Source: a virus
Strand: one strand, 5' to 3'
Length of the DNA stretch: 39,617 nt
IMG/VR virus record: IMGVR_UViG_3300046501_000429
Span: 1 to 39,617 of that record
Shown: piece after piece, positions 1 to 39,617 of the stretch
How positions within the stretch are numbered: the first letter of the stretch is position 1
Layout: every line of letters starts with the position of its first letter
Position numbers and translations under genes: made by a program
Notes under the pieces: generated by a model
The model's input: only the letters and a program-made list of their open reading frames with translations
What the model was told of the DNA's origin: nothing
The model's database searches: none

Positions 1-523
1 AACTCGTGCACCCGGCATCCCGAACCGTGCCGACGAAATCACACAACTCCTCGTAACTGTCCCGCCCGTTGATCCCGATCCGATGCTTCACCGTCACCGG
101 AATCGACACCGCATCGCGCATCGCCTTCACACAATCAGCCACCAACTGCGGATGCCCCATGAGGCACGCACCGATCATATTGTTCTGCACCCGGTCACTC
201 GGGCAGCCGACATTTAGATTCACCTCGTCGTAACCGTGCTCCTGCGCCATGCGTGCACACATCGCCAGGTCCAGCGGCACACTGCCGCCGAGTTGCAGGG
301 CGAGGGGGTGTTCGGCTTCGTTGTGACGCAGGAAGCGGTCGTGATCGCCGTTGAGCAGCGCACCGGTGGTGACCATTTCGGTGTAGAGGAGGGCGTGCTT
401 GGAGAGTAGGCGTAGGAAAAAACGGCAATGCCTATCAGTCCAATCCATCATGGGTGCAACGCTAAAGCGTCTAGACACTGTAGAGCTTGAATTTACTGGG
501 TATGTAGCTGATTTCTGTACCAT
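1..523 (-). CDS. dusA: tRNA-dihydrouridine synthase A, N-terminal part (runs off left edge), with phage-supplied start
   Basis: Reading the minus strand from the ATG at 523 gives 174 uninterrupted residues to the window edge. They include the DusA signatures [17 protein letters not shown] (from about residue 17), the FMN-site region with [10 protein letters not shown] (catalytic Cys about residue 107), and [12 protein letters not shown]. DusA reduces U20/U20a in tRNA. The phage attachment core (439-451) encodes part of APMMDW, so everything upstream of that motif (about 24 residues, including [13 protein letters not shown]) is read from prophage DNA. Integration therefore swaps the 5' end of the gene and leaves an intact frame with a new start. 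No strong Shine-Dalgarno is seen before the ATG. A GTG nearer the core (about 478) could serve as an alternative start. Identity of the gene is secure; the exact start is inferred. Confidence 0.95.
439..451. other. attL core (dusA side)
   Basis: The 13-bp sequence TCCAATCCATCAT occurs here and again at 39028-39040 in the same orientation. On the minus strand it encodes the MMDW part of DusA. The integrase gene lies about 175 bp inside this copy, as expected for an attachment site. The dusA body lies to its left and phage DNA to its right. Sequence beyond the 13 bp diverges, although the APMMDW codons continue at protein level on both sides. Confidence 0.85.
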
Positions 524-618
524 TTTGCTCTACGTGTTCAAAGCCGGTTTTAGGGGGTAAATGGGCGTTTTTTAAAGGTCGTTGGTACAATGTACCAACT
601 CCTTTAGCAATTGTACCA
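516..618. promoter_or_regulatory. Cluster of TGTACCA arm-type sites next to attL
   Basis: The heptamer TGTACCA or its complement TGGTACA occurs at 516-522, 583-589 (inverted), 591-597 and 612-618. The middle pair forms a 19-bp inverted repeat (581-599) with one central base. Two further copies lie next to attR (38954-38960, 38965-38971). Clustering at both prophage ends suggests recombinase or excisionase arm-binding sites, possibly also controlling the integrase, whose ATG is 8 bp downstream of the last copy. The 516-522 copy overlaps the new dusA start codon. Confidence 0.5.
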
Positions 619-625
619 GTTGACC

Positions 626-1750
626 ATGGCCACGATCAGAGCACGGAAACGCACCGACGGCAGCACCAGTTACACGGCACAGATACGCCTGTTTCGCGAT
701 GGTGCGCAAGTTTACCAAGAGAGCCAGACCTTCGCCCGGAAACAGGCCGCCCAGGTTTGGGTTCGAAAGCGCGAAACTGAACTGGATCAGCCAGGCGCGA
801 TCGAGCGGGCAAATCGCAAAGGCGCGACGATCAAGGAAATGATCGATCGCTACTTGGATGAAATGGAAAAGGTTCGACCGCTCGGGAAGACCAAGCTCGC
901 CACGCTTAAAGCGATCAGCGAATCATACCTAGGCAAATTGAATGACCAGGACATCAACAGTCAGCAGTTGGTGGAGTATGCATTGTGGCGGATGGGCAAA
1001 GAGGGCGGGAACGTTCAGCCTCAGACAGCCGGTAATGATCTCGCGCACCTCGGCGCAGTACTTTCGATCGCTCGGCCTGCTTGGGGTTACGAGGTCGATC
1101 CGCACGCAATGACGGATGCCCGGCGGGTGTTGAAAAAGCTGGGGTACAACATGAAAAGTCGAGAGCGCGATCGACGCCCGACTTTGGATGAACTCAACAA
1201 GCTACTCAAGCATTTTCAGGGTATCCAAGCCCGTCGCCCAACGTCGATCAATATGCTCAAAATGACGGGGTTTGCGTTGTTTTCAACGCGTCGCCAAGAG
1301 GAAATTACGCGGATTCAATGGGCAGATCTGGATGAGGTAGGCAAGCGGGTGTTGGTGCGGGACATGAAAAACCCCGGTCAGAAGATCGGCAACGATGTCT
1401 GGTGCCATTTACCGCCAGAAGCGTGGGCCATTATTCAATCCATGCCGAAGACGCTATCTGAGATATTTCCGTACAGTGCGGAGTCTGTATCCGCGTCATG
1501 GACCAGAGCGTGTCATATGGTTGGCATTGAGGACCTGCACTTTCATGACCTGCGTCACGATGGTGTTAGCCGGCTTTTCGAAATGGACTGGGACATTCCT
1601 CGAGTAGCGAGTGTGTCGGGGCATCGCGATTGGAATTCAATGCGGCGTTACACCCACCTTCGTGGGCGAGGTGACGCATACGAGAACTGGAAGTGGTTGG
1701 AGAAGATCCTACAGGCGCCCGTAAAATTGGGCGCCAGGACGCTGAAGTAA
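626..1750 (+). CDS. int: Tyrosine-recombinase integrase
   Basis: This 374-aa protein catalyses site-specific integration and excision at dusA. It has an N-terminal arm-type DNA-binding region, a core-binding SAM-like region (about 65-170), and a C-terminal catalytic domain. Visible catalytic residues are an Arg in FSTRRQEEITR (about 222), HDLRH (about 307-311), the GHRDW His (about 333) and the nucleophilic Tyr of RRYTHL (about 342). I chose ATG 626 (MATIRARKRTDG) over the upstream TTG at 611 because the extra five codons lie in the TGTACCA repeat. It is the only long plus-strand gene at the left end and converges on the early operon. Length is typical for phage integrases of this type. Confidence 0.95.
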   Translation: MATIRARKRTDGSTSYTAQIRLFRDGAQVYQESQTFARKQAAQVWVRKRETELDQPGAIERANRKGATIKEMIDRYLDEMEKVRPLGKTKLATLKAISESYLGKLNDQDINSQQLVEYALWRMGKEGGNVQPQTAGNDLAHLGAVLSIARPAWGYEVDPHAMTDARRVLKKLGYNMKSRERDRRPTLDELNKLLKHFQGIQARRPTSINMLKMTGFALFSTRRQEEITRIQWADLDEVGKRVLVRDMKNPGQKIGNDVWCHLPPEAWAIIQSMPKTLSEIFPYSAESVSASWTRACHMVGIEDLHFHDLRHDGVSRLFEMDWDIPRVASVSGHRDWNSMRRYTHLRGRGDAYENWKWLEKILQAPVKLGARTLK

Positions 1751-2759: not shown

Positions 2760-5570
2760 CTACGCCTGAAACATCCAGCACTTGACGGTGGGTGACTTGG
2801 TGATCGTGTTGTTATTCCGCGTGGCTTGATAAGCACGCACCGCGCTGTCGACGGCCTTGTTCGACTCCAGGAATTTGCGGCAACGAGATTCCTTCAGGCG
2901 ATCGCGCAGCTCGCTGACGTCGGCCAGCTTCTGCCGGTGTTCTGCGGCTCGCTCGACGAACTCGTTGAGGTTGATGGCGATGACGTTGTCTTTTTTGCTG
3001 TGGTTGACCACCGGCCCATCGGCGTCAAGGCCTTGGAGGTAGTCGTAGACTTCCCAGAATTCAGCGACAACAGGGTGATCTGCGCTGATCGAGCCCTGGC
3101 GCTCGATCGCCATTGCGATGATGCAACGCTGGGTGGTGCTGATATGGGAATCGCTCAGGGGTACAAGCGAGCGGATGCAGTCCAGTAGGCCGAGCAGCTG
3201 GGCATGGTTTTTAACGATCCGTTCGACGCGGATATAGCCGCGCAACTGATTGCCGCAGTTTTGGCATGCGGCCTTGTCGTTGTTGGCTGGGTACTCGGTG
3301 TCGCAACTGATGCAATGGGTATGCAGCCGGCGCAACCGCGCTTCGTGTGCGGGGATTTTGTCGGCGAGCGTGGACATGACATCGGTTTCGCGCTTCACCG
3401 CCTGCAGCAGGAAGTGGCTGAGCTGATTGCCGTCCAAGGCAGTCAGGCGGTCAGCCGCGGCTCGGCTTTCTGGCGTCACATTTGGCCGCACGAAGTGCAG
3501 CTTCACAATCCGCGTCATGATGGCTTCGGAAGCAATCACAGGCGCGTTCTGGCTGATCGCGATCGTGCCTCGGAACGGTGGCTCGTAGGTTTCGTTGCCG
3601 GCGGTTTTGACACCCTTTGTCGCCAAGGTACCGCCGCCGAAGTAATCCTTCAGCTCGTCCCATTCGAAGTTCTTCGCGTGGGATTTGTCGTCACCGCTCC
3701 GATCGGACTCCAGCAGCACCACCGGCATCCCGGACACTTGCCCCATCAAGCGGCTGCGACCTGCCTTGGTGGACTTCGACGGGTCAAACCCTTCGTAGCC
3801 TGCGCGGCCGAGTAACTTCCACAGCAGGTTGAGCAGGGTGGTTTTACCGGCCCCTGCCTCGCCAGTGGCTTCCAGGAAGGGAAACGACTGGTAGCGAGCG
3901 CGGATCTGCTCGGCGAACAGCGAGCCGAACCAGAAAGTCAGTGCGACAACGCCCTGGGCGCCGAAGCACGTCCACAACAATTTCGCCCATTCGTCGCTGT
4001 ATTCCTTCGGGTCGCGCTGAATTCGCACCGGTACCGCACGTTGCAGGGTTTTCAGACGTAGCTTGCCGAACTCAAAAAATTCCTCGTCGTTGACGTCGAC
4101 CACTTGGCCATCTTTGATGGCCACGTCGCCGTACACGTAGCAACCGTATTCCTTGCTGTACCCGACGAAGTCGATCGTCTGAACCGTTTTGATCGCGAAC
4201 AGCTGGTCCTTCATGATTTTGTCGAGCTGCTGGCCACTGCCGGTGAACACCGCGCCGGCGGCCATGCCGAGCAGACGTTTCTTAAACTCGCTCGCAGCTG
4301 CTACCTGGCCACCGGTGAAGGTGTTTTTTACCGAGCCACCGTCGTGCGGAAAATCAACACGGAAGAAGTACCAGGACTCGTCGGTGATTTCATTGCGCTG
4401 GAAGTACAGAGCTTGGGGGTAGCAGTTGGCGATCTCGACCACGCAGCCCGACATGCGCAACGCTTTCTCACGCATGGCTTTGCTGTTCAGCTGTTGCTCT
4501 TCGTGATTCTCGCTGGTCTCCAGCGCCTGCATGGCGTTATTGAATTTGCTGATGTCCAGCTTCCACCAATAAAGGCGGGACTCAAACCCGAAGTGGAATT
4601 CCTCGCGCTCACGCCAGTTGTACATCAGCAGCGCTTTTTCTGATGCGCTCTCGGCGATAAGCAGGGCACCGTGGTGGCGGGCCTCGTCGAGGTCCGCTTC
4701 GGTGCGCCGGCGGCGATCGGCTTCATCACTGATGAAGGCCCAACGCTGATGCAGGTCGTTCCAGTCCACCTTTCGTGCATCGCGTTGCGGAATCTGAGCC
4801 GCAGTGCATTCAAAGCCCAGAGCCCGGGCCATGGCGACCCATTTGCGCGTGTAACGGTGCGCGCCAGGCTCGTTGTCCAGTGCCCACACCAGTCTCGGCA
4901 GATTGCCTGCTCGATCGACGGCGAGTGCTTTCAGCGAGGCCTCGGGAAAAGCATTCGACGACATTGCCGCGACCGCATCGATCGCGTTGTGCTCGAGGGC
5001 TATCGCATCAAAAATGCCTTCGACGATCCACAGTTCTTCGGTCTGTGACAGGTCGATATTCGGCGAACACCACCAATAGCCCTTGTAAGACGCCCCGGGT
5101 TTGAATCGGGCTTTCTTCTTTCCGAAGCGCTGAGGCTGGTCAATCAGGCGCTCCCAGTAACCGCCGCGCTCTAGAGGAAAACGGACCGTTGCTGAGCCGA
5201 TATTCAGGTCGCGATCAAAATAGTTTTCCTGGGTGAACAGTCCGGCGACCAGCTCGATCTTGAAACCCCGAGCGAACTCCATATAGGCGCGGGCGCTTGC
5301 TGTCGGTTGATCGTCCGTGGCTGGCGCGCGCTTGCTCCAGTCGTCGAACAGATCGGCGTACAGCTCTTTGACATGCCACTGCTGACCGCATTTGCTCTCA
5401 CGGCCGCACTTGATGAACCACGGGTTTTCGAAGCTGGAATACAGTTCCTTTTTCGAGCAGGCAGGGCAGGTGCCACCGCGCATGAAGTCGGTGCCTGTGC
5501 GATGCCGCAGGCCATAGTCGAATTCGAGTCGGGTCAGTACATCACCCCGGATTTGCTGTTCCATCTTCAC
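2760..5570 (-). CDS. Phage DNA primase-helicase (Toprim plus ATPase)
   Basis: This 936-aa replication protein likely primes and unwinds phage DNA. The N-terminus has a zinc-binding pattern (Cys about 35, 38, 55 and 61), then a Toprim-like core with LWIVEGIFDAIA (Glu about 184) and WALDNEP (Asp about 232). A helicase domain has Walker A GEAGAGKT at about 570-577. A second Cys-pair zinc motif follows (CISC...CQNC, about 745-775). The last about 100 residues (from 834) resemble the C-terminus of the antirepressor at 33120-33953. The listed start is GTG 5570, overlapping the stop of the upstream 77-aa gene; ATG 5564 is an alternative. It replaces the P2 A-type replication protein, implying a different replication mode from P2 (inference). 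Confidence 0.92.
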   Translation of the reverse strand: MKMEQQIRGDVLTRLEFDYGLRHRTGTDFMRGGTCPACSKKELYSSFENPWFIKCGRESKCGQQWHVKELYADLFDDWSKRAPATDDQPTASARAYMEFARGFKIELVAGLFTQENYFDRDLNIGSATVRFPLERGGYWERLIDQPQRFGKKKARFKPGASYKGYWWCSPNIDLSQTEELWIVEGIFDAIALEHNAIDAVAAMSSNAFPEASLKALAVDRAGNLPRLVWALDNEPGAHRYTRKWVAMARALGFECTAAQIPQRDARKVDWNDLHQRWAFISDEADRRRRTEADLDEARHHGALLIAESASEKALLMYNWREREEFHFGFESRLYWWKLDISKFNNAMQALETSENHEEQQLNSKAMREKALRMSGCVVEIANCYPQALYFQRNEITDESWYFFRVDFPHDGGSVKNTFTGGQVAAASEFKKRLLGMAAGAVFTGSGQQLDKIMKDQLFAIKTVQTIDFVGYSKEYGCYVYGDVAIKDGQVVDVNDEEFFEFGKLRLKTLQRAVPVRIQRDPKEYSDEWAKLLWTCFGAQGVVALTFWFGSLFAEQIRARYQSFPFLEATGEAGAGKTTLLNLLWKLLGRAGYEGFDPSKSTKAGRSRLMGQVSGMPVVLLESDRSGDDKSHAKNFEWDELKDYFGGGTLATKGVKTAGNETYEPPFRGTIAISQNAPVIASEAIMTRIVKLHFVRPNVTPESRAAADRLTALDGNQLSHFLLQAVKRETDVMSTLADKIPAHEARLRRLHTHCISCDTEYPANNDKAACQNCGNQLRGYIRVERIVKNHAQLLGLLDCIRSLVPLSDSHISTTQRCIIAMAIERQGSISADHPVVAEFWEVYDYLQGLDADGPVVNHSKKDNVIAINLNEFVERAAEHRQKLADVSELRDRLKESRCRKFLESNKAVDSAVRAYQATRNNNTITKSPTVKCWMFQA

Positions 5571-7403: not shown

Positions 7404-7760
7404 TTGGAAAAAACTTTGGGCGAGAGGCTCCGGGAAGAGCGCGACCGGCTTGGAATTAATCAGAACGATTTCGCTGATATAGGCGGTGTGAAACGTAACT
7501 CCCAAGGCAATTACGAGAATGATCGACAGAGGCCGGATACGGCTTATCTGTTGGCGATCTCGAAGATCGGCGTGGACGTGATGTATGTGCTTTTCGGTCG
7601 GAGGGATACGACAGCGGGAACGCAGACCACTATCGAAAACGAAGTGCTTAACTGTTTCCGTTCGCTGAGTCCTGGTGATCAAGTTGTGGTGCATCGGATC
7701 GCTACTGGCCTCGCCGAAATGGCAGCGAAAGAGTCGCAGGGCACGCTTCCTCTGGAGTGA
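7404..7760 (+). CDS. XRE-family phage repressor (C-type)
   Basis: The 118-aa protein reads (TTG start) EKTLGERLREERDRLGINQN with a complete HTH: ERLREERDRLG...QNDFADIGGVKRNSQGNYEN. This XRE domain covers about residues 5-60, then a short C-terminal part suited to dimerisation. TTG 7404 is preferred because GGAG sits 5-6 nt upstream; ATG 7374 (128 aa) lacks an SD. It is the only regulator transcribed rightward in the switch and is the presumed lysogeny repressor. There is no LexA-type protease domain, so induction would need an antirepressor; one is encoded at 33120-33953. Confidence 0.85.
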   Translation: MEKTLGERLREERDRLGINQNDFADIGGVKRNSQGNYENDRQRPDTAYLLAISKIGVDVMYVLFGRRDTTAGTQTTIENEVLNCFRSLSPGDQVVVHRIATGLAEMAAKESQGTLPLE

Positions 7761-7864
7761 AATTGCATCACTCGATCTAGCGCTACCATGCGAAAGAGTG
7801 TGCACCTGGTGCTTCAGAAAATCTCGATTTCGCCGATGCTCTGCGGCTTTAAGGAGTATTGAGC

Positions 7865-29954: not shown

Positions 29955-30839
29955 CTAAAAGAATACGAAATACAAGGTCAACGCTATGGCCAATAGAATT
30001 AATGCTGCAATACCAGTTTTCTGATGGGCCGCGAAAAGAGTCAAAAAACCAGTTTTAGGGCGGTTCGGATCGAGCTCCCATTCAGACGGAACAATTTCGT
30101 CGGATTCAAATAAAGGGCGCCAGTATTTCTTTATGTGCATCCGATTATTTTCGAAAAACTCGCTGTGAGAGTAATCGAAATATCTGTCTGTTACTGTCGC
30201 GTTTTTAAATCCAACACGGCCAGTACTCCCGTATCCCCAGGTAGCGCAGCTGGCTATTAGTGGCCAGATATCTCTGACGCCAACGTCATTAATAATTGAG
30301 CTCTTTCGCATGCTTCGAGCATTGCGATCCCATGGATAACTGCGCTTAATAAAGCATCCACTCAGCACAATTTTCTCAAAGCTAATGTCTGGATGATCCT
30401 CCAGAATTCTGCTTACCACATATGTGCCAAAACTGTGAGCAATTACTGAAATTCGAGCCAGCGGCTCCTCGTCTTTCAGTTTTCTGATGTCACGCACAAT
30501 TTTATTAACGGGGCCGTCCCGAAATGGACTAGCTAACTGTATCCCGGTAACTACGTCATAGCCTAAGTCATGAACTTGCAAGTTTGGCACGCCATGAAAC
30601 TCTCTTTGGACGTCCCGCTGCCAAGCCCCATCCGTTCGAATTCCATGGATGAGTACTAGTATTTTTGAATCTGCGCTGTCTCGAATGCCGCTGCGCTTGT
30701 TGTCGACCAACGCATCGAACAAGTCTTTTTGATCTTCGGAGATTGTCGCGCGGAGTAAACTAAATACTTCTTTTCTTTGTTTAGGGTCAGTTGCAGCCCA
30801 CAGTTTTTCAACTAATTTAATAATTTCAGTGGAGTTCAT
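29955..30839 (-). CDS. Membrane-anchored alpha/beta hydrolase, third gene of accessory cassette 1
   Basis: 294 residues from ATG 30839. A helical N-terminal region (1-55) is followed by an alpha/beta-hydrolase fold: oxyanion strand LVLIHGIRTDGAW (62-73), nucleophile elbow VIAHSFGTYV (132-141, Ser136), candidate acid Asp185 or Asp190, and candidate His225 in FDYSHSEFF. The C-terminus is one hydrophobic span (about 275-294, IAALILLAIALTLYFVF). It overlaps the upstream gene by 14 nt and is visibly AT-rich compared with the phage core. The fold suggests a lipase or esterase held at the membrane, an effector design seen in some anti-phage systems. Function is inferred, not shown. Confidence 0.85.
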   Translation of the reverse strand: MNSTEIIKLVEKLWAATDPKQRKEVFSLLRATISEDQKDLFDALVDNKRSGIRDSADSKILVLIHGIRTDGAWQRDVQREFHGVPNLQVHDLGYDVVTGIQLASPFRDGPVNKIVRDIRKLKDEEPLARISVIAHSFGTYVVSRILEDHPDISFEKIVLSGCFIKRSYPWDRNARSMRKSSIINDVGVRDIWPLIASCATWGYGSTGRVGFKNATVTDRYFDYSHSEFFENNRMHIKKYWRPLFESDEIVPSEWELDPNRPKTGFLTLFAAHQKTGIAALILLAIALTLYFVFF

Positions 30840-31212
30840 CTTTTGCCACGCTATACATGGTTTCAAGGTCACTGTCACTGACTTCCATTTCAACGCCTCG
30901 CAAAGGGTCGAAAACTTGTGTGGGGCAGTCGTACCAGCTATTTACTTGCAGTATTTCAGGGCCTAGCGGTGACCTGATAATCAGCCGCCGCTCCATGATT
31001 CCCGACTGTACTAGTAGCGTCGTCACTTTCGCAAAGCGAGCAGAACTTCCTGCTTGAGAAATATCAAACAAGCGAGTGATGTTCATGGTCACATCATAAA
31101 CTTTTGCGCCGCTGGCCCTTTCGATATCTTCAAGGTGCTCAGCAACCCTAACCAAAGCATCAGCAATTTGCGGATTTTCTTTAATTAAGGGAGAGAATCT
31201 TTTCGATAACAT
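30826..31212 (-). CDS. Small winged-helix-like protein, second gene of accessory cassette 1
   Basis: 128 residues, MLSKRFSPLIKENPQIADAL. The segment ARFAKVTTLLVQSGIMERRL then IIRSPLGPEILQVNSW resembles a winged-helix recognition helix and wing. It ends with an acidic VSDSDLETMYSVAKDEL tail. It overlaps the 342-aa gene by 32 nt and the hydrolase by 14 nt, so the three are translationally coupled. I do not recognise the family; an adaptor or regulator is plausible. Confidence 0.8.
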   Translation of the reverse strand: MLSKRFSPLIKENPQIADALVRVAEHLEDIERASGAKVYDVTMNITRLFDISQAGSSARFAKVTTLLVQSGIMERRLIIRSPLGPEILQVNSWYDCPTQVFDPLRGVEMEVSDSDLETMYSVAKDELH

Positions 31213-32209
31213 AAGAATATTCCCCAGGCGTGCAAGTTGCTGTTATTGCAAACTCGTGCAGCAAGCCATTCAAATGCACATGTATTTGACGGCTCGCGTC
31301 ATCTGGCATTATAAACCAAATATTAGAACCCGTCACAAAACCTTTTTGTGCCATGAAACTTTTCATTGCAGCGGAGGATCCACTGTCTTCTGAAAGGTTT
31401 TTAGACAAGTTTTGCGCAGCGAGGTTCATTGATATGCCGAAATCATTCATCGCAGTAGTTGTGCTGTAACGAATAATGCCGGCGAATTCTTCCTGTTTGT
31501 TATATAAAGTGTCTTTCGCGGCGCTCAGTGATACAGGTTCGAAAACGCTAACTGGCACAAACTTAAGAGCCATGTGAATAATGGCGGATAATTGTTCGTG
31601 GTACTTAGTCGAAGTGTCTCTGGATGCGATGCGGATTTGCAATAATCCATCGCGATTCAAATTGGCGATACTAATCGCCCTTTTTTTCGTTATCTGATAG
31701 GTCTTAGTTCTTTGGCTTGAAGCGGCGTCCCAGTTATCTTCTAAAAGTTTACTGCTTTCCCGAGTTTCGCAAATCTTCACTGTTAAAGAAATTGGGCCTG
31801 AGCCATTTGGTGCCTCTTCCAACCGGATGTCTACAATCTCGGGAGCTTCCGGCATTTCAAGGTGCAAGGGAATAGACATGCGCTCGAGAACATTTAGCTC
31901 GGTTGCCGCCGATTCTATCCGTGTTCTTTTCAGGATTTTTTCTGCGTCAGCTGGGGAGCATTTGAAGAGAAAAATATGTTGTTTTCCATACTCTTCCACT
32001 TGCCGTAGCAAGACTGACAAGTCATCGATCGTTAATTTTTTTGATTCGAGTGCCGGCAGAACCCGTTGGTTGTAAAGCTCATCCCAGTTGGGTGCGGTAA
32101 TCGGGACATTTCGGTCGCGCAAAAAATCACGAACGACTTCAAGGCTACTGGCCTCTCTGATCAGCCCAAACACCGTTTTAGCTTGTTTCTGTTCTGCGGG
32201 GTTAAGCAC
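31181..32209 (-). CDS. Unrecognised 342-aa protein, first gene of accessory cassette 1
   Basis: Begins MLNPAEQKQAKTVFGLIREA. The N-terminal about 100 residues are helical (VVRDFLRDRNVPITAPNWDE), the middle is beta-rich (SIPLHLEMPEAPEIVDIRLE, GPISLTVKICET), and the C-terminal part (about 205-342) mixes helices and strands, ending HEFAITATCTPGEYSYVIEK. No Walker, nuclease or membrane motif is evident. As the lead gene of the operon it could be the sensor component. Base composition is AT-rich like its partners, supporting joint transfer. Confidence 0.8.
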   Translation of the reverse strand: MLNPAEQKQAKTVFGLIREASSLEVVRDFLRDRNVPITAPNWDELYNQRVLPALESKKLTIDDLSVLLRQVEEYGKQHIFLFKCSPADAEKILKRTRIESAATELNVLERMSIPLHLEMPEAPEIVDIRLEEAPNGSGPISLTVKICETRESSKLLEDNWDAASSQRTKTYQITKKRAISIANLNRDGLLQIRIASRDTSTKYHEQLSAIIHMALKFVPVSVFEPVSLSAAKDTLYNKQEEFAGIIRYSTTTAMNDFGISMNLAAQNLSKNLSEDSGSSAAMKSFMAQKGFVTGSNIWFIMPDDASRQIHVHLNGLLHEFAITATCTPGEYSYVIEKILSLN

Positions 32210-33060: not shown

Positions 33061-33121
33061 GAGGTGAAAGCTATCGCCCTTACCGTCTGCTTACCAAGAC
33101 GGTAAGGGCTGCCTTCACCTC
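33061..33121. other. Large nested hairpin after the antirepressor gene
   Basis: CCCTTACCGTCT (33077-33088) pairs perfectly with AGACGGTAAGGG (33097-33108). Outer arms GAGGTGAA and TTCACCTC (33061-33068, 33114-33121) also pair. No T-run follows on either strand. It may be an mRNA-stability element, an attenuator or a protein-binding dyad. Confidence 0.6.
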
Positions 33122-33953
33122 ATTGGACTTGGATCTGGGCCGGCTTCTTGAACACCCAGCACTTGGTTGTGGTTTTGCGAATGATGCTGTCCACCGCCTT
33201 TTGCCCCAAAAATTGTGGCTCGGTGCAGCGTTTCAATGCGTTGGTTACGTCGGTACCGACGATCGTCTGAACGCCATTGGCAGCGAACAGTTCGACCAGG
33301 TGCGGCATGTTCAGCGCGATCAGTTGAGGATCCTTGGAGTGGTTGTAGATGATGCCCTTGGTGTCCAGCTGCAGGAGCGCGCTCCAGAAGTCTGCGACCA
33401 CGTCCGCTTGCGGCAGCTCGACGGTGCCGAGGGCGTCCAGATCCGGAACGGGCAGGCCCATGGCGTTGGACAGGTTTGTGATCTCGACGCCAAGCAGATC
33501 CCGCATCGACCGATTGCGACTACGCATCAGCTCTTTCAGTAGCACCAGGCGATGTTTCGATAGGCTGATCTGTTGCGCGATGGTGACGGCACCAGGTCGA
33601 ACGGCCACGCCTTTGGTCCAGTAATTCCAGAGCACCTCGTCGCACTCTTCCTGGTACCGAATGATTTTGTCGCGCAGTTCGGGTGCCACTTTGTTCGGGC
33701 TGATCGAGTAGAGCCAGGCTGCAAGTTTTCGCAGGGGAAGGCAGGTCATTCCGTACTGTTTGCCATCGGCGCCAGTTGTCACCATTTCGGTGACGACTGA
33801 GCCGAACCGCTCGTTGATCTTCCTGTGCTGCACCTGCCAGGCCAGCCCCATGTTTTCGACAACAGACCGCATTGCGACATAGGGTTCGTTCTCTTTGCCT
33901 ACCAGCACAATGGTGTCGCCATGAAACGGAACGGGCATCAGTTGGGTGTTCAT
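33120..33953 (-). CDS. Phage antirepressor (P22_AR_N) with primase-like C-terminal domain
   Basis: 277 residues. The N-terminal half is the P22_AR_N domain: MPVPFHGDTIVLVGKENEPY, VENMGLAWQVQHRKINERFG, MTCLPLRKLAAWLYSISPNK and VAPELRDKIIRYQEECDEVL. Such proteins inactivate repressors. The C-terminal part (about 185-277) shares VVA-D/E-FW, NHSK, IA-x-N, FLxxKAVDS and TxKCWxF with the last 100 residues of this phage's own primase. It lies in a leftward operon after two small genes that start behind a conserved leader. It is a candidate trigger for release of the repressor at 7404. Confidence 0.88.
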   Translation of the reverse strand: MNTQLMPVPFHGDTIVLVGKENEPYVAMRSVVENMGLAWQVQHRKINERFGSVVTEMVTTGADGKQYGMTCLPLRKLAAWLYSISPNKVAPELRDKIIRYQEECDEVLWNYWTKGVAVRPGAVTIAQQISLSKHRLVLLKELMRSRNRSMRDLLGVEITNLSNAMGLPVPDLDALGTVELPQADVVADFWSALLQLDTKGIIYNHSKDPQLIALNMPHLVELFAANGVQTIVGTDVTNALKRCTEPQFLGQKAVDSIIRKTTTKCWVFKKPAQIQVQ

Positions 33954-33973: not shown

Positions 33974-34180
33974 TTAGATGCGGGATTGGGTGCTGTTGGC
34001 AGAGCGAATTACGCTGTTCAGGTCATCGCAGATCCGGTCCAAGAAGCCGGCCAGCATCTGAGGCTGAAACAACCCGGGGTGATCAGCCTGCTGGGCGAGC
34101 GCGTGCACCAAGGCAAGCGAATCCCGCACGCGTTCCAAATCAAACAGATCCGCATCGGTGAGACCGTAGGACTTTCTCAT
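33974..34180 (-). CDS. Hypothetical small protein (68 aa)
   Basis: MRKSYGLTDADLFDLERVRD ... ends ANSTQSRI. The ATG overlaps the previous 52-aa gene as ATGA and it is 20 nt from the antirepressor. The helical pattern SLALVHALAQQADHPGLFQP resembles small Pseudomonas phage accessory proteins. Function unknown. Confidence 0.75.
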   Translation of the reverse strand: MRKSYGLTDADLFDLERVRDSLALVHALAQQADHPGLFQPQMLAGFLDRICDDLNSVIRSANSTQSRI

Positions 34181-34335
34181 AGGGCACTGCCGTGCGTTTC
34201 CAGAACGCGCACTTGGTGCATGTGATGGTTGTAGCGCTTGAGGCGAGTGGAGAGGGAGGAGTTAGCGTGCAGCGCGGCGAGAGCCATGCGGCGATGGGCA
34301 AGTGCCCGGATTTTGGACGGAATGAGGGCGGTCAT
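34177..34335 (-). CDS. Hypothetical small basic protein (52 aa)
   Basis: ATG 34335 with AGGAA upstream opens MTALIPSKIRALAHRRMALA and ends LETHGSAL. It is rich in Arg and His. It is the first gene of the leftward antirepressor operon and sits directly behind leader element A; the longer frame to 34479 would translate that leader and is rejected. Confidence 0.7.
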   Translation of the reverse strand: MTALIPSKIRALAHRRMALAALHANSSLSTRLKRYNHHMHQVRVLETHGSAL

Positions 34336-34368: not shown

Positions 34369-34460
34369 CGTCGCCAAACGAGGGTGGCAGCTGTACGCAG
34401 GTTGGCGAACCGGGGAAAGGTACCCGGCAGACCCTAAGGTCTCCCACGCACAGCCGCCAT
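34369..34460 (-). promoter_or_regulatory. Conserved leader element, copy A
   Basis: About 92 nt nearly identical to 39476-39570. On the minus strand it contains AGACC-TTAG-GGTCT as one hairpin and TCGCCAA ... TTGGCGA as another. It begins just after a terminator and ends 34 nt before the ATG of the 52-aa gene, so it is probably promoter plus structured 5' leader. Confidence 0.65.
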
Positions 34461-34478
34461 AACACGGAACTGCGGGCA

Positions 34479-34512: not shown

Positions 34513-35443
34513 GTGCGCCTTTCTATCCGGGTCGCCAAACCCGTTCGCTGAATTGGCAGCGACGACCGCACTTTACGCTCGTCAACGTCTGGGGATCAAG
34601 TGTCCCCGGACAATATTTAATATCACGCTACGTTGCCGCTACCGCTGCAGGCGCTGCTCAGTTGTGGCGATCATCTCCACAGCTGCCACGAATAGATGAG
34701 TCGGGCGCGGGGCGGCTGGCCGCCGGGGTGCCGGCTTGAGGGTGGGCGGAGCCGGGGCGTCGTGAATGCACCGTTTTGGGGCGGCGCCGGTCGGGCTGGG
34801 TGGGTCTTCACCTGGCGCGCGCCGTCGTCCCCCCGCCACGCCTGCGGGCTAAATCGGTCTTAATTTCTGCACACCTGCAACCTACCAGCCGCAGCGCCCG
34901 ATGGGCCTCTCCCGCGCGAACAGGGGCTGATAAAACCCTGCAAATCCCTGCACGCACCCCCTATTTTCAGAGCGCCATGGAGCGCTATTCCAAGGGCCTG
35001 TTTTCAGGTGACCCACGGGAAACAAGTAATTTAAGTATGTGAAGGTGAGAAACCAGCTACAGCCCGCACGCGATGCGGTTTGGAGCACTTACTTTGCACT
35101 GGCTTTTTTGAGTAAGGAGGGGAGTAATTTTTATCTAACTGTATGATTTATATAGATATTTTATTTTCGATTTCTGACCTTAGTAAAAGGTAATGTTATT
35201 TCTAGATATTACTTAAAACTTACCTAATCAAATCGTCTACAAACCTTGTGATTCGTAGCTTTCAGAAGGGGGGAGGGAAAACTTACCAAAAATACCGGTT
35301 GCCCGTGGGTCAACATAAAAACGGGACTGGCTATAGGGGGAGGGTGGCGGCAGGTTCTCGCTCCTGCAGCAGCTCGCTTACACGCAAACTGTCACCAAAC
35401 ACGCTAAGGCTCAAACTGACACGTCTGGAACCCTTGAAAATAG
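34513..35443. other. Long non-coding stretch: GC-rich cos region then AT-rich segment
   Basis: I see no credible gene here. Near 34529-34560 a short partial copy of the leader element occurs (GTCGCCAAAC). From about 34690 to 34860 it is very GC-rich and holds the cos candidate. From about 35095 to 35250 it turns strongly AT-rich, then G-rich again. Listed reading frames in this interval have low-complexity compositions and no ribosome sites. Confidence 0.6.
34824..34842 (-). other. Candidate cos site
   Basis: The minus strand reads GGCGTGGCGGGGGGACGAC. From memory of P2-group phages, the cohesive end begins GGCG(A/T)GGCGGGG, so the first 12 bases match. The orientation also agrees: read from here the genome leads toward Q, as from the P2 left end. 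It lies in a GC-rich non-coding stretch. The last bases differ from P2. Confidence 0.5.
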
Positions 35444-35535: not shown

Positions 35536-36549
35536 CTAAAATATTTCGACGTCGTTTTTCTTTCCAATGTTCGCGAGTTCTATATGTCCAACGTCATTTT
35601 TCCAATACATTAAGCGTAACGTAGGATTACCTTTAGTGATGTGGGTTCGCCATGCTAGATCACCATTTGCTCTACTTCGTTGTTCTTTACGTGTTGTGTC
35701 TTTCCAGAATGGATCCAGACTGTTTTTTCCTATCCCCGCTAAAGCATGACATATCACATCAAACGTCGTGCCGGAATACTTTTGAGTCGGTGCGCATTGA
35801 TTGGTATCTAAACTTTCAATGAATTTCTCGCCTAATGAAAAATCTTCCAATTTAAGTGCGCTGCGTTTGACTCCGCGTTGCGCAAATACGGCATTAGCTC
35901 CTACAAGAAAAGCGGATTTAATCGCATTTTCATCAGTCGCCGCATTGTATAGGGAAAGGGTATTCTGAGAGACGGTAAACATCTGATAGCTTTTCAAAAC
36001 CTGAATTGTGGTTTTGATTTCCTGTGGAAGCTCATCGTCATTTTCAGGAAGGATCGATACTACTTCGCCAGTAAAAGTGACGCTATTACCTTCACAAGTG
36101 GGGTGATGAAGCATGGAATAATTTTTGTCAAAAAAACGAATGGATAGACTTATATTTTCTAGTAGATCTACCAGGGCCTCGTTCCGAGTCTGGCTTCTTC
36201 CTTCAAGCATTGGCTCGACAAGTTTGTTGTTCCAGTCCGCGACGCATACTGGAAATTTACTATCGTCGCCTAGATTCTTAATTAAAATATTGTGTACTGT
36301 TCTGGCTATTTCTTTACCGCAGTAGTCGTCGTGTCCGATGTTCTTTAAGTGGTGATTGAACATCTGCGCGCAAGGGTAATAACCTATTTCTTCAAGCTTA
36401 TCGAGAGAATTTTCTTCAATTACAATAGAGCTCGAGCCATTATCTAGGTCTCTCTTGATGAAAATTAAACTCTCCACGCAGGAAGGCAAGCTTTCTTTAG
36501 AGCAGTAAGCTGGTGAGATTAGATAGTCACTGCTAACAACTAATTGCAT
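35536..36549 (-). CDS. Unrecognised 337-aa partner of the ATPase, accessory cassette 2
   Basis: Begins MQLVVSSDYLISPAYCSKES. Conspicuous segments are TRNEALVDLLENISLSIRFF, an alpha-helical middle, and a C-terminal part DLAWRTHITKGNPTLRLMYW followed by GHIELANIGKKNDVEIF, which looks like the conserved core. No membrane span or known nuclease motif can be named with confidence. Its ATG shares one base with the ATPase stop (TAATG), so the pair is coupled. Strongly AT-rich. It may be the effector or DNA-handling partner of the ATPase. Confidence 0.8.
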   Translation of the reverse strand: MQLVVSSDYLISPAYCSKESLPSCVESLIFIKRDLDNGSSSIVIEENSLDKLEEIGYYPCAQMFNHHLKNIGHDDYCGKEIARTVHNILIKNLGDDSKFPVCVADWNNKLVEPMLEGRSQTRNEALVDLLENISLSIRFFDKNYSMLHHPTCEGNSVTFTGEVVSILPENDDELPQEIKTTIQVLKSYQMFTVSQNTLSLYNAATDENAIKSAFLVGANAVFAQRGVKRSALKLEDFSLGEKFIESLDTNQCAPTQKYSGTTFDVICHALAGIGKNSLDPFWKDTTRKEQRSRANGDLAWRTHITKGNPTLRLMYWKNDVGHIELANIGKKNDVEIF

Positions 36550-38441
36550 TATTTTAGCTCCTTTTCAAGAGCTATCAGTTCTCTTCTCTTTTTTGTTGCT
36601 TCCAGCAAGATGTTTTCGATTTCTGTATCTGTCTGGTCGAAAAAGTCTTTTGGCCAATCAAGAATTGCGCCGAACTTACTTATATCCACAGTTCTGATGG
36701 CAGATTTACCGTTTTCCTTGTCGATAAAGATAATGGTAGATCGGTCAACGATCGAGTCGTCGCGACTCTGTGCGATACGCAGTCTCAGTCTATTTATCAG
36801 GTATTCGCTATGAGTTTCAATAATACATTGTATTTTGCGTTGTGATAGGGCTATAAAGAAGTCGCAAAGCCTTGCTTGAACCTTGGGGTGCAAATGCAAT
36901 TCTGGTTGTTCAAATATTAGGATGTCGTCATCTTTTGCAAGAAGGGCCATGACCACAATAGGAAGAATCTGACTTACCCCTACACCTACGTGAGTTAGAT
37001 CTTGCCATTTGTCATCGGGCGTCGTTTTGACTTTAAGCTCATATCCCAGTTTGCCTTTGTCGGAGGTTTGTACTGAAGCTACTACGCCGAGGTGTTGAAG
37101 CCATTCAGTACATGCTTCTTCGAGGGTTGTTTGTTTTTCTTGAAAAGTGATACAGCCATTGTCCAGTGCAACTACCGAGGGGTACGTCACTCGTGTAAGT
37201 CTATTTATATGAAGTACAGCAGCTGTGAATTCGCCTTTTAAGCCGACTTTGGTTGGTTCCGCTAAATCAAAAGCTTGGTAGGTCGCTTGAGGTTCGTTGC
37301 GCAACGGTCCAAGGTATTTTATGCTGCCTTCAAATACAGCTGAAAGGTAGTGGTCTAGAGACTGAAAAGTATCAAGATGGCAGTAAGTGCTTCTTCTGGT
37401 TTTTTTAGTATTTGAATACCAAACTCCCTGTAACGTATCTCTGTACTTAATAAGGAAGTCGGAGAAGGCCTTAGCTACTTTTTCATCTAGATTATCAGTA
37501 AGTGCGCGCCAGGCTGAAATATCCATTGCATGATTGCTAATCTGTGGAATGATGTCAGGTTTTAGTACCAGGGCTTGGCGGGCTAACAACGCTTTTACTC
37601 TTTCAAGGTTTTTGTTGCTCCGCTTGTCCTCCTCCATCATTGCAAGAATTTCTTCGGGGATTTCAAAGGAGTTACTTCGCTCTGCATGTTCTTTTTCTAT
37701 TAGAGAGCGGGTTTTATCTAGAAAGTCCTTAGGTAATACGATGTTTGCTAGATCTGAGAGATCCACCCCTTTAATTTGTTTTAAATAGGCCTGGGATCCT
37801 ATCAAGAATGGAATAAGTTGTAGGCTGGTTTTTTTTGTATGATCATAGTTAATGCGGACCATTCCCGGAAGGATTTCCTGCTTGTTGCTTCCTTCGATTC
37901 TGTAATCCGGATACTCTTTCTCAAGATTGTCAGTGCTGGCAGATTGCAGTGATAAAATCTTGTACAGTCTGTCCTCGAATTTAGAACTGTCGTCATGAGC
38001 GAATTCGATATGCTCTTCAGGTGTATCTACTCTTACAACAGTTGCACGCCCTTTGATAATGTCCGGATGGTAGTGGCTTTCGTAACCTTTACTCTGATCG
38101 TCAGTTGCGCCGAATGTGTAGTCGAGGGAAGCCCGCTTTATGTCATGTATCCATAGTTGGTTTGTTGTAAATGACATGTCGACTTTTAATCTGATGTGTT
38201 TATCCTTCGCATTATAGTCGAGGATGTCACTAAAAGAGCCTAGTCTAACAAAGCGGCCATTCAGCGAAATGGCACTTTTAAAGTAGCGAGAACTAAAGGT
38301 TTGGCTTAACATCAGGATTGCTTGTATTAGTGAGCTTTTTCCTGAGCTGTTTGATCCGCATATTATTGAAAGTTTTTCGAGGTTTAATGGGGTATTGGTT
38401 GTAATGGATTTGAAGTTCTTTAATTCGAGAGAGCGTATCAT
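36549..38441 (-). CDS. ABC-type ATPase with DUF3696-like C-terminus, accessory cassette 2
   Basis: 630 residues. SMC/Rad50-like N-terminus LELKNFKSI then Walker A CGSNSSGKSSLIQ (28-40), signature-like VGVGVSQILP (485-494), Walker B ILIFEQPELHLHP (about 507-519), H-loop ETHSEYLINRLR (542-553), and DWPKDFFDQTDTE near the end, as in DUF3696 ATPases. A long insertion separates the two ATPase halves. AAGGAAAG precedes the ATG. Relatives of this OLD/AAA15-like class drive several anti-phage systems, always with a partner gene, as here. The cassette is AT-rich and flanked by the tRNA fragment and attR. Confidence 0.9.
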   Translation of the reverse strand: MIRSLELKNFKSITTNTPLNLEKLSIICGSNSSGKSSLIQAILMLSQTFSSRYFKSAISLNGRFVRLGSFSDILDYNAKDKHIRLKVDMSFTTNQLWIHDIKRASLDYTFGATDDQSKGYESHYHPDIIKGRATVVRVDTPEEHIEFAHDDSSKFEDRLYKILSLQSASTDNLEKEYPDYRIEGSNKQEILPGMVRINYDHTKKTSLQLIPFLIGSQAYLKQIKGVDLSDLANIVLPKDFLDKTRSLIEKEHAERSNSFEIPEEILAMMEEDKRSNKNLERVKALLARQALVLKPDIIPQISNHAMDISAWRALTDNLDEKVAKAFSDFLIKYRDTLQGVWYSNTKKTRRSTYCHLDTFQSLDHYLSAVFEGSIKYLGPLRNEPQATYQAFDLAEPTKVGLKGEFTAAVLHINRLTRVTYPSVVALDNGCITFQEKQTTLEEACTEWLQHLGVVASVQTSDKGKLGYELKVKTTPDDKWQDLTHVGVGVSQILPIVVMALLAKDDDILIFEQPELHLHPKVQARLCDFFIALSQRKIQCIIETHSEYLINRLRLRIAQSRDDSIVDRSTIIFIDKENGKSAIRTVDISKFGAILDWPKDFFDQTDTEIENILLEATKKRRELIALEKELK

Positions 38442-38649: not shown

Positions 38650-38868
38650 TCAGCTATCAGGTGTCTGAGCTTGCAGGCGCGCCAAGCCCTGCTTTATGTG
38701 GCCAGCATTCTCGCCGATCATTTGTAGGGATGCGCGAGCATTTTCACCGACGTCTGTAGCTCCCTGGTACTCAGCCCTCAGCACTAGCTCCATGATTGCA
38801 GCCTCAAGGGCTAGCTGGTTCTCGTAAATTCTTGCAAGCACATCGGGAAGGGAATATTGGTTTGGCAT
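38650..38868 (-). CDS. Hypothetical protein next to attR (72 aa)
   Basis: From ATG 38868 (MPNQYSLPDVLARIYENQLA) the frame gives 72 residues with ALEAAIMELVLRAEYQGA and GENAGHIKQGLARLQ. GGAG lies 8 nt upstream. Proteins of this type commonly sit at the end of Pseudomonas prophages. Function unknown. The longer frame to 38961 would run into the arm-site region and is not used. Confidence 0.8.
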   Translation of the reverse strand: MPNQYSLPDVLARIYENQLALEAAIMELVLRAEYQGATDVGENARASLQMIGENAGHIKQGLARLQAQTPDS

Positions 38869-38953
38869 GAGATCGACTCCATTCGGAAAGTCGGAAGCAT
38901 AGCAGTGCGAATGCAGAAAAATATGATTGTGGGTCTTTAGGAGGGATGGTCGC

Positions 38954-38971
38954 TGGTACACAACTGGTACA
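38954..38971. promoter_or_regulatory. Pair of TGGTACA arm-type sites next to attR
   Basis: TGGTACA occurs at 38954-38960 and 38965-38971, spaced 11 bp (one helical turn) and about 60 bp inside attR. The same heptamer clusters next to attL. Likely integrase or excisionase arm sites. Confidence 0.5.
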
Positions 38972-39475: not shown

Positions 39476-39570
39476 TTGTCGCCAAACAATGGGTGGTAGC
39501 TGTACGCGGGTTGGCGAACCGGACAAGGCACAAACCGGCAGACCCGAAGATCTCCCACGCACAGCCACCA
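39476..39570 (-). promoter_or_regulatory. Conserved leader element, copy B
   Basis: About 95 nt matching 34369-34460 almost throughout, including GGTTGGCGAACCGG, AGCTGTACGC and CTCCCACGCACAGCC on the plus strand. Stems TCGCCAA/TTGGCGA and AGATC-TTCG-GGTCT are kept, with a changed loop and one base change in the stem. It precedes the 89-aa gene by about 40 nt. Confidence 0.65.
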
Positions 39571-39617
39571 AAAAAAAGGTAGCCAAGTGCGTTTAGAAAC
39601 TCTCCGAGCTGGCTCGG

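Follow-up and report, generated by a model that had tools for sequence, protein, structure and literature searches.

A predicted winged-helix domain shared by the antirepressor and the replicative primase-helicase of a P2-like prophage

The antirepressor (Ant) and the replicative primase-helicase of a P2-like prophage infecting Pseudomonas carry a common C-terminal domain: Ant residues ~181–270 are homologous to primase residues ~832–936, over a core of approximately 90 aa, and the domain is predicted to have winged-helix topology. Most likely it is a DNA-binding and dimerising winged helix, the primase copy of which would, by analogy with the alpha protein of P4, bind the origin, the Ant copy being directed to DNA or to the primase. 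The account as a whole, according to which the N-terminus of Ant faces the repressor and the shared winged helix holds Ant on phage DNA, is judged probable, with appreciable doubt; the homology, the predicted fold, the exchange of N-termini, the distinct lines of descent of the Ant and primase copies, and the C4 elements in the leader of ant are the results on which it is built.

The DNA analysed, referred to below as the window, is a record of 39,617 b that can be recognised, from reading by eye and tblastn comparison with relatives, as a P2-like prophage with the P2-type genes D, U, T, E, FII, FI and further to Q; a match to the Fels-2 tail sheath supports this assignment of the gene set. 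Close relatives of the window are found in Pseudomonas genomes, and phages Dobby and F_HA1961sp/Pa1641 are also closely related to it. The features discussed are collected in Table 1. In addition, the region 35536–38441 (minus strand) encodes a 630-aa ATPase with AAA_15/AAA_21 (PADLOC top match NsnB, 2.2e-78) paired with a 337-aa protein of no known family, which from their sequences are a candidate anti-phage defence pair. Three genes at 29955–32209 (minus strand), one of them encoding an alpha/beta hydrolase-like protein (PF00561, 1.4e-6), are regarded as accessory; the other two ORFs gave no PADLOC matches.

Table 1. Features of the window relevant to the shared domain (positions in the window unless given as residues)
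Feature	Position	Strand	Basis
dusA fragment (left end of the window)	2–523	-	
Integrase	611–1750	+	gene reading by eye, tblastn against relatives
Replicative primase-helicase, 936 aa	2760–5570	-	ORF; phrog_1139 DNA primase, 1233 bits
Shared C-terminal domain, primase copy (predicted winged helix, 13-aa wing insertion)	2766–3077	-	BLASTP, profile comparison, structure prediction
Toprim	primase residues 181–273	-	Pfam Toprim_2, 8.3e-8
Walker-A P-loop GEAGAGKTT	primase residue ~568	-	sequence
Zinc-ribbon-like CxxC pair	primase residues ~745–777	-	sequence
Candidate repressor	near 7500–7770	+	read by eye only
Antirepressor (Ant), 277 aa	33120–33953	-	ORF; P22_AR_N, E 1.5e-47; phrog_524 anti-repressor Ant, 7e-66
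Shared C-terminal domain, Ant copy (predicted winged helix)	33144–33413	-	BLASTP, profile comparison, structure prediction
Conserved Ant linker (SKHRLVLLKELMRSRNRSMRD...), probably helical	33414–33587	-	antirepressor alignment
P22_AR_N, N-terminal domain of Ant	33603–33932	-	Pfam PF10547, E 1.5e-47
68-aa ORF between leader ORF and ant	33974–34180	-	no Pfam match
Short ORF of 52 codons, probable leader, downstream of the C4 RNA and upstream of ant	34177–34335	-	read from sequence
C4 antisense RNA, upstream of ant	34380–34464	-	Rfam RF01695, 80.0 bits, E 2.9e-14
c4-a1b1, C4 antisense RNA target, leader of the ant operon	34524–34576	-	Rfam RF03163, 53.5 bits, E 6.7e-11

In a BLASTP comparison of the two proteins, Ant residues 185–269 aligned with primase residues 834–935 at 33% identity (E 2e-10), the primase copy differing by the insertion in its wing. 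Two profiles built separately, one from 16 antirepressors and one from 14 primases, matched each other over 85 columns with a probability of 99.1 and an E value of 1.8e-18. Furthermore, among PHROG models that of the primase family, phrog_1139, matches Ant at its C-terminus (2.9e-8), and two more, phrog_20645 and phrog_18886, each match both proteins. The Pfam matches, which include P22_AR_N for Ant and Toprim for the primase, leave the shared segment uncovered. The pairwise, profile, and PHROG matches together with the lack of a Pfam match thus establish a genuine similarity in a domain that has no name. A similarity owed to chance or composition is so improbable as to be negligible: nothing favouring it was found, and both E values and the independent PHROG matches contradict it. 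An earlier note on this DNA had proposed that the two C-termini share a domain, to be judged by comparison of profiles; the proposal stands, with the similarity significant in that comparison and the core refined to the length given above. The motifs it named are all present in Ant and in the primase, respectively, as VVADFW and VVAEFW, NHSK in both, IALN and IAIN, TTKCWVF and TVKCWMF, and, for FLxxKAVDS, FLGQKAVDS and the one residue longer FLESNKAVDS. The distance of about 28 kb that it gave between the two genes agrees with the measured 27.5 kb.

A model of the domain obtained with AlphaFold2 from 27 mixed copies (pLDDT 93.4, pTM 0.82) has the order helix-strand-helix-helix-strand-strand (H2–18, E31–34, H36–45, H54–61, E67–75, and E82–89), and the primase C-terminus modelled alone shows the same order, which corresponds to a predicted winged-helix topology. 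Foldseek searches of the PDB and of a viral library gave nothing below E 0.001, and the fold therefore rests on AlphaFold and on topology; nor did a sequence-based search for a solved structure return anything credible. The best PDB match, not significant at E 0.08–0.27, is TcpK of plasmid pCW3 (PDB 5vfx, 5vfy; PMC6137059), a small winged-helix protein solved on oriT DNA. The TcpK wing binds tandem DNA repeats and the protein dimerises (PMC6137059), but no sequence homology between TcpK and the domain was detected, and TcpK serves conjugation, not replication. The other weak matches are mostly unrelated, with some nucleic-acid-binding winged helices and replication proteins among them (Rep WH1, RTP, PadR, HSF, and the SCCmec Cch helicase), and those in the viral library include primase and helicase proteins.

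The half of the domain running from the third, recognition, helix to the wing has a net positive charge in all copies inspected, from +3 to +6 in 21/21 antirepressors and from +4 to +8 in 28/28 primases; averaged over the 49 copies, helix 1 is acidic. The residues most conserved in both kinds of copy, F9, W10, L16, N24, H25, S76, C85, W86, and F88, look for the most part like core residues. Since the residues of the recognition helix differ between the Ant and the primase copies, one DNA site common to both is not indicated. Nevertheless, the basic half found in 49/49 copies, the fold, and the weak structural matches taken together make DNA binding the most likely activity of the domain. That the two proteins simply reuse a module for oligomerisation or stability, one that binds no DNA, is unlikely. 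The structural appearance of the strictly conserved positions would suit such a module, as would the linker that precedes the domain in all antirepressors of the alignment and the occurrence of some P22_AR_N proteins without the domain, but the basic half is present in every copy, and the domain ends a primase-helicase, where related enzymes carry their origin-binding domain.

For a superfamily-3/D5-type helicase core, the primase yields the Walker-A motif and a weak AAA match in Pfam (E 0.037), and nothing more. The enzyme resembles the alpha protein of P4 in combining a Toprim (bacterial-type) primase, a helicase P-loop, and a C-terminal winged helix, the last being only predicted in the window primase. 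It differs from P4 alpha in having no match to a P4-family Pfam model and in its surroundings, as neither an iteron array near the primase gene nor iterons common to the primase and ant regions were found. The C-terminal winged helix of P4 alpha binds origin repeats (PMC4234260), and the C-terminal domain of Cch2 binds origin iterons (PMC7581432); by extension, the domain with which the Toprim primase-helicase of the window terminates would, like that of P4 alpha, bind DNA, specifically the origin. A leader sequence, GCATGGTTCTCTCCTTT(C/T)AGGG, occurs in three copies (2161–2191, 2369–2399, and 2716–2746) a short way downstream of the primase gene, with the palindromic GGTTGCAGCC near each of them; on the minus strand, the three copies can be read as the ribosome site and ATG of small ORFs.

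The N-terminal part of the antirepressors is exchanged, and the linker and C-terminal domain stay together in the versions with P22_AR_N, in those with Bro-N, and in standalone proteins (L208, L209, and L210). A Bro-N-type N-terminus, read from the sequences and supported by Pfam Bro-N matches, replaces P22_AR_N in nine loci (L022, L023, L024, L026, L028, L150, L158, L159, and L228). These fusions fall into three lineages, the L022/L150 type, the L158/L159 type, and L228 from a distant Pseudomonadota genome, and in the Bro-N forms from viral contigs the linker and domain are 72–82% identical to those of the window. The prophage in genome G028 carries both the P22_AR_N and the Bro-N kind. Elsewhere, P22_AR_N proteins have different C-termini or none, and P22_AR_C was not found in Ant by Pfam at E<=1. 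With P22_AR_N present and a primase-type C-terminus, the protein is, on its sequence, better filed as Ant-like than as a full-length P22 Ant. In two loci the genes stand in tandem: at L150 (4210–6406) antirepressor-type genes flank a C4/a1b1 pair, the first encoding P22_AR_N in a protein of 203 aa that lacks the winged helix and the second Bro-N with the winged helix, and at L159 (9635–11467) both genes of the pair are of the Bro-N and winged-helix type.

This pattern of P22_AR_N or Bro-N swapped onto a constant partner, with N- and C-terminal segments found in varying combinations, is that of the Bro network and the P22 Ant-type regulators, to which the association with C4/isrK RNAs and the setting in phages and satellites provide further likeness. 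Domain swapping in the Bro network was reportedly described by Iyer et al. in 2002. It is established (PMC10111431). The C-terminal segment of Ant, having no Pfam match, is absent from the Pfam domains listed for the network in that paper.

The reading of Ant as an antirepressor is supported by the arrangement upstream of its gene, where the C4 RNA and its a1b1 target, both above the Rfam gathering score, lie on the same strand as ant, as in C4-controlled antirepressor operons. The leader region folds better than shuffled sequences (z -3.8). In most of the relatives examined, C4, a1b1, and/or isrK are likewise present upstream of ant, at varying genomic places, and the standalone version L210 has C4/a1b1/isrK upstream as well. 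The closest studied analogue is the isrK-orf45-anrP locus of Gifsy-1, where a gene resembling antirepressor genes is under the control of isrK RNA (PMC4825925). Like that locus and the C4-controlled antirepressor operons, the ant locus comprises a C4-clan RNA and/or isrK, a short leader ORF, and an antirepressor gene; it differs in the type of phage and in the primase-type C-terminal domain of its Ant. By analogy with orf45 (PMC4825925), the 52-codon ORF probably plays the part of a leader ORF. A second C4 antisense RNA (78.3 bits) lies at the right end of the window (39489–39575, minus strand), upstream of a 103-aa ORF (38650–38961) and of the ATPase pair, and this region is possibly a second C4-controlled operon. 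A precedent for SOS control through LexA is tum of phage 186. Such control of ant was considered and rejected, as no LexA box CTGT-N8-ACAG was found upstream of 26 ant genes in the available upstream sequence of up to 700 bp.

In a tree of 49 copies of the domain, a single branch (support 100/100) divides the antirepressor copies from the primase copies, giving two clades, and 100% of the bootstrap trees contain a single change between the two kinds. Identity between the Ant and primase domains is 35.7% within a genome versus 34.9% between genomes (permutation p 0.05). Over 20 pairs, the distances among Ant copies of the domain are correlated with those among primase copies (r 0.73), and a correlation is likewise seen between Ant and the core of the primase (r 0.75), but given the primase core the covariation of the two domains falls to a partial r of 0.05, that is, it is explained by common phage descent; specific coevolution beyond that descent was thus rejected. 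The separate clades, the within- and between-genome identities, and the partial correlation point to an old split with no sign of exchange, and the two copies most likely derive from old domain shuffling, not from exchange between ant and the primase gene. The suggestion in the earlier note that the domain may be a site of recombination between the genes is accordingly not borne out. Free exchange of domains does take place at the antirepressor N-terminus, but in view of the tree and the two identity values it is highly improbable that the similarity marks recombination or gene conversion within the same phage.

The search for the domain in other phages, which the earlier note had advised, showed it to be widespread. 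It is present in 70/299 Pseudomonas genomes, mostly within primases of ~900–1000 aa, and in 12/398 Pseudomonadota genomes. The ant cassette occupies at least four positions in P2-like genomes, beside Q, in the interval from S to V, in that from FII to E, and after D (the window locus, L016, L025, L029, L151, L152, and L153), mostly accompanied at each place by its C4/isrK RNAs, as if gene and RNAs had moved as a unit. A unit of ~1.0–1.06 kb with the full P22_AR_N and winged-helix gene is also found at varied Pseudomonas chromosomal sites with no phage genes near (L154, L155, L156, L157, L211, and L212); the units of L154 and L156, both orphan copies, are 92% identical and end abruptly, and no obvious terminal repeats were seen in the unit.

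Among 51 virus records with a domain-bearing primase, 7/8 P22_AR_N proteins and 4/4 Bro-N proteins have the domain, the sole exception, L244 (184 aa), coming from a record that also has a domain-bearing antirepressor. Other P22_AR_N proteins occur in six records, none of which has such a primase, and both proteins are again found in a P2-like prophage of the distant genome G669. As 11/51 records entered the set via their antirepressor and the records represent one phage lineage, lineage alone could explain this co-occurrence. In the genomes G031 and G033 orphan copies persist with no domain-bearing primase in the genome. The genomes G028 and G030, in which Ant was seen and a domain-bearing primase was not, were rejected as counter-examples because their contigs end before the expected position of the primase.

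The heterodimerisation partner of the P4 alpha winged helix is Cnr. An analogous coupling, in which the winged helix of Ant would pair with that of the primase or occupy its site at the origin and so coordinate antirepression with replication, gives a specific form to the suggestion in the earlier note that the domain may bind the same partner as the primase or compete with it. That suggestion is compatible with the data; the coupling itself is held to be rather doubtful. The co-occurrence, the six records, and G669 are consistent with it, and a direct link of Ant to the primase is made plausible by the regulation of the P4 alpha winged helix via homo- and heterodimerisation, which the title of a paper by Yeo et al. 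from 2002, cited in PMC4234260, announces. Against it stand the loss of the correlation once the primase core is taken into account, the selection of records through their antirepressor, and the chromosomal orphans. It is a still more tentative and unlikely proposition that the Ant winged helix engages its own primase or origin in such a way as to lift repression and gate replication at once, under C4 silencing and with a repressor specificity that can be swapped with the N-terminus.

In the preferred account, that of a winged helix holding Ant on phage DNA, ant would be kept silent in the lysogen by the C4 RNA. Once this block was lifted and Ant made, its variable N-terminal domain, P22_AR_N or Bro-N, would meet the repressor and disable it. 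The constant linker and winged helix would dimerise and keep the protein on phage DNA, supplying a DNA address that may be near the origin or linked to the primase.

In the open-access literature searched, a link between a C-terminal module of the Bro network and a primase winged helix was not found. The domain has no Pfam model and could receive one. The C-terminal parts of Bro-network proteins are mostly of unknown role, and one of them can now be seen to recur as the end of the replicative primase encoded by the same phage, so that both a fold and a function are suggested for this module. Ant and the primase constitute a simple pair of proteins in which a physical link between prophage induction and replication may be tested.
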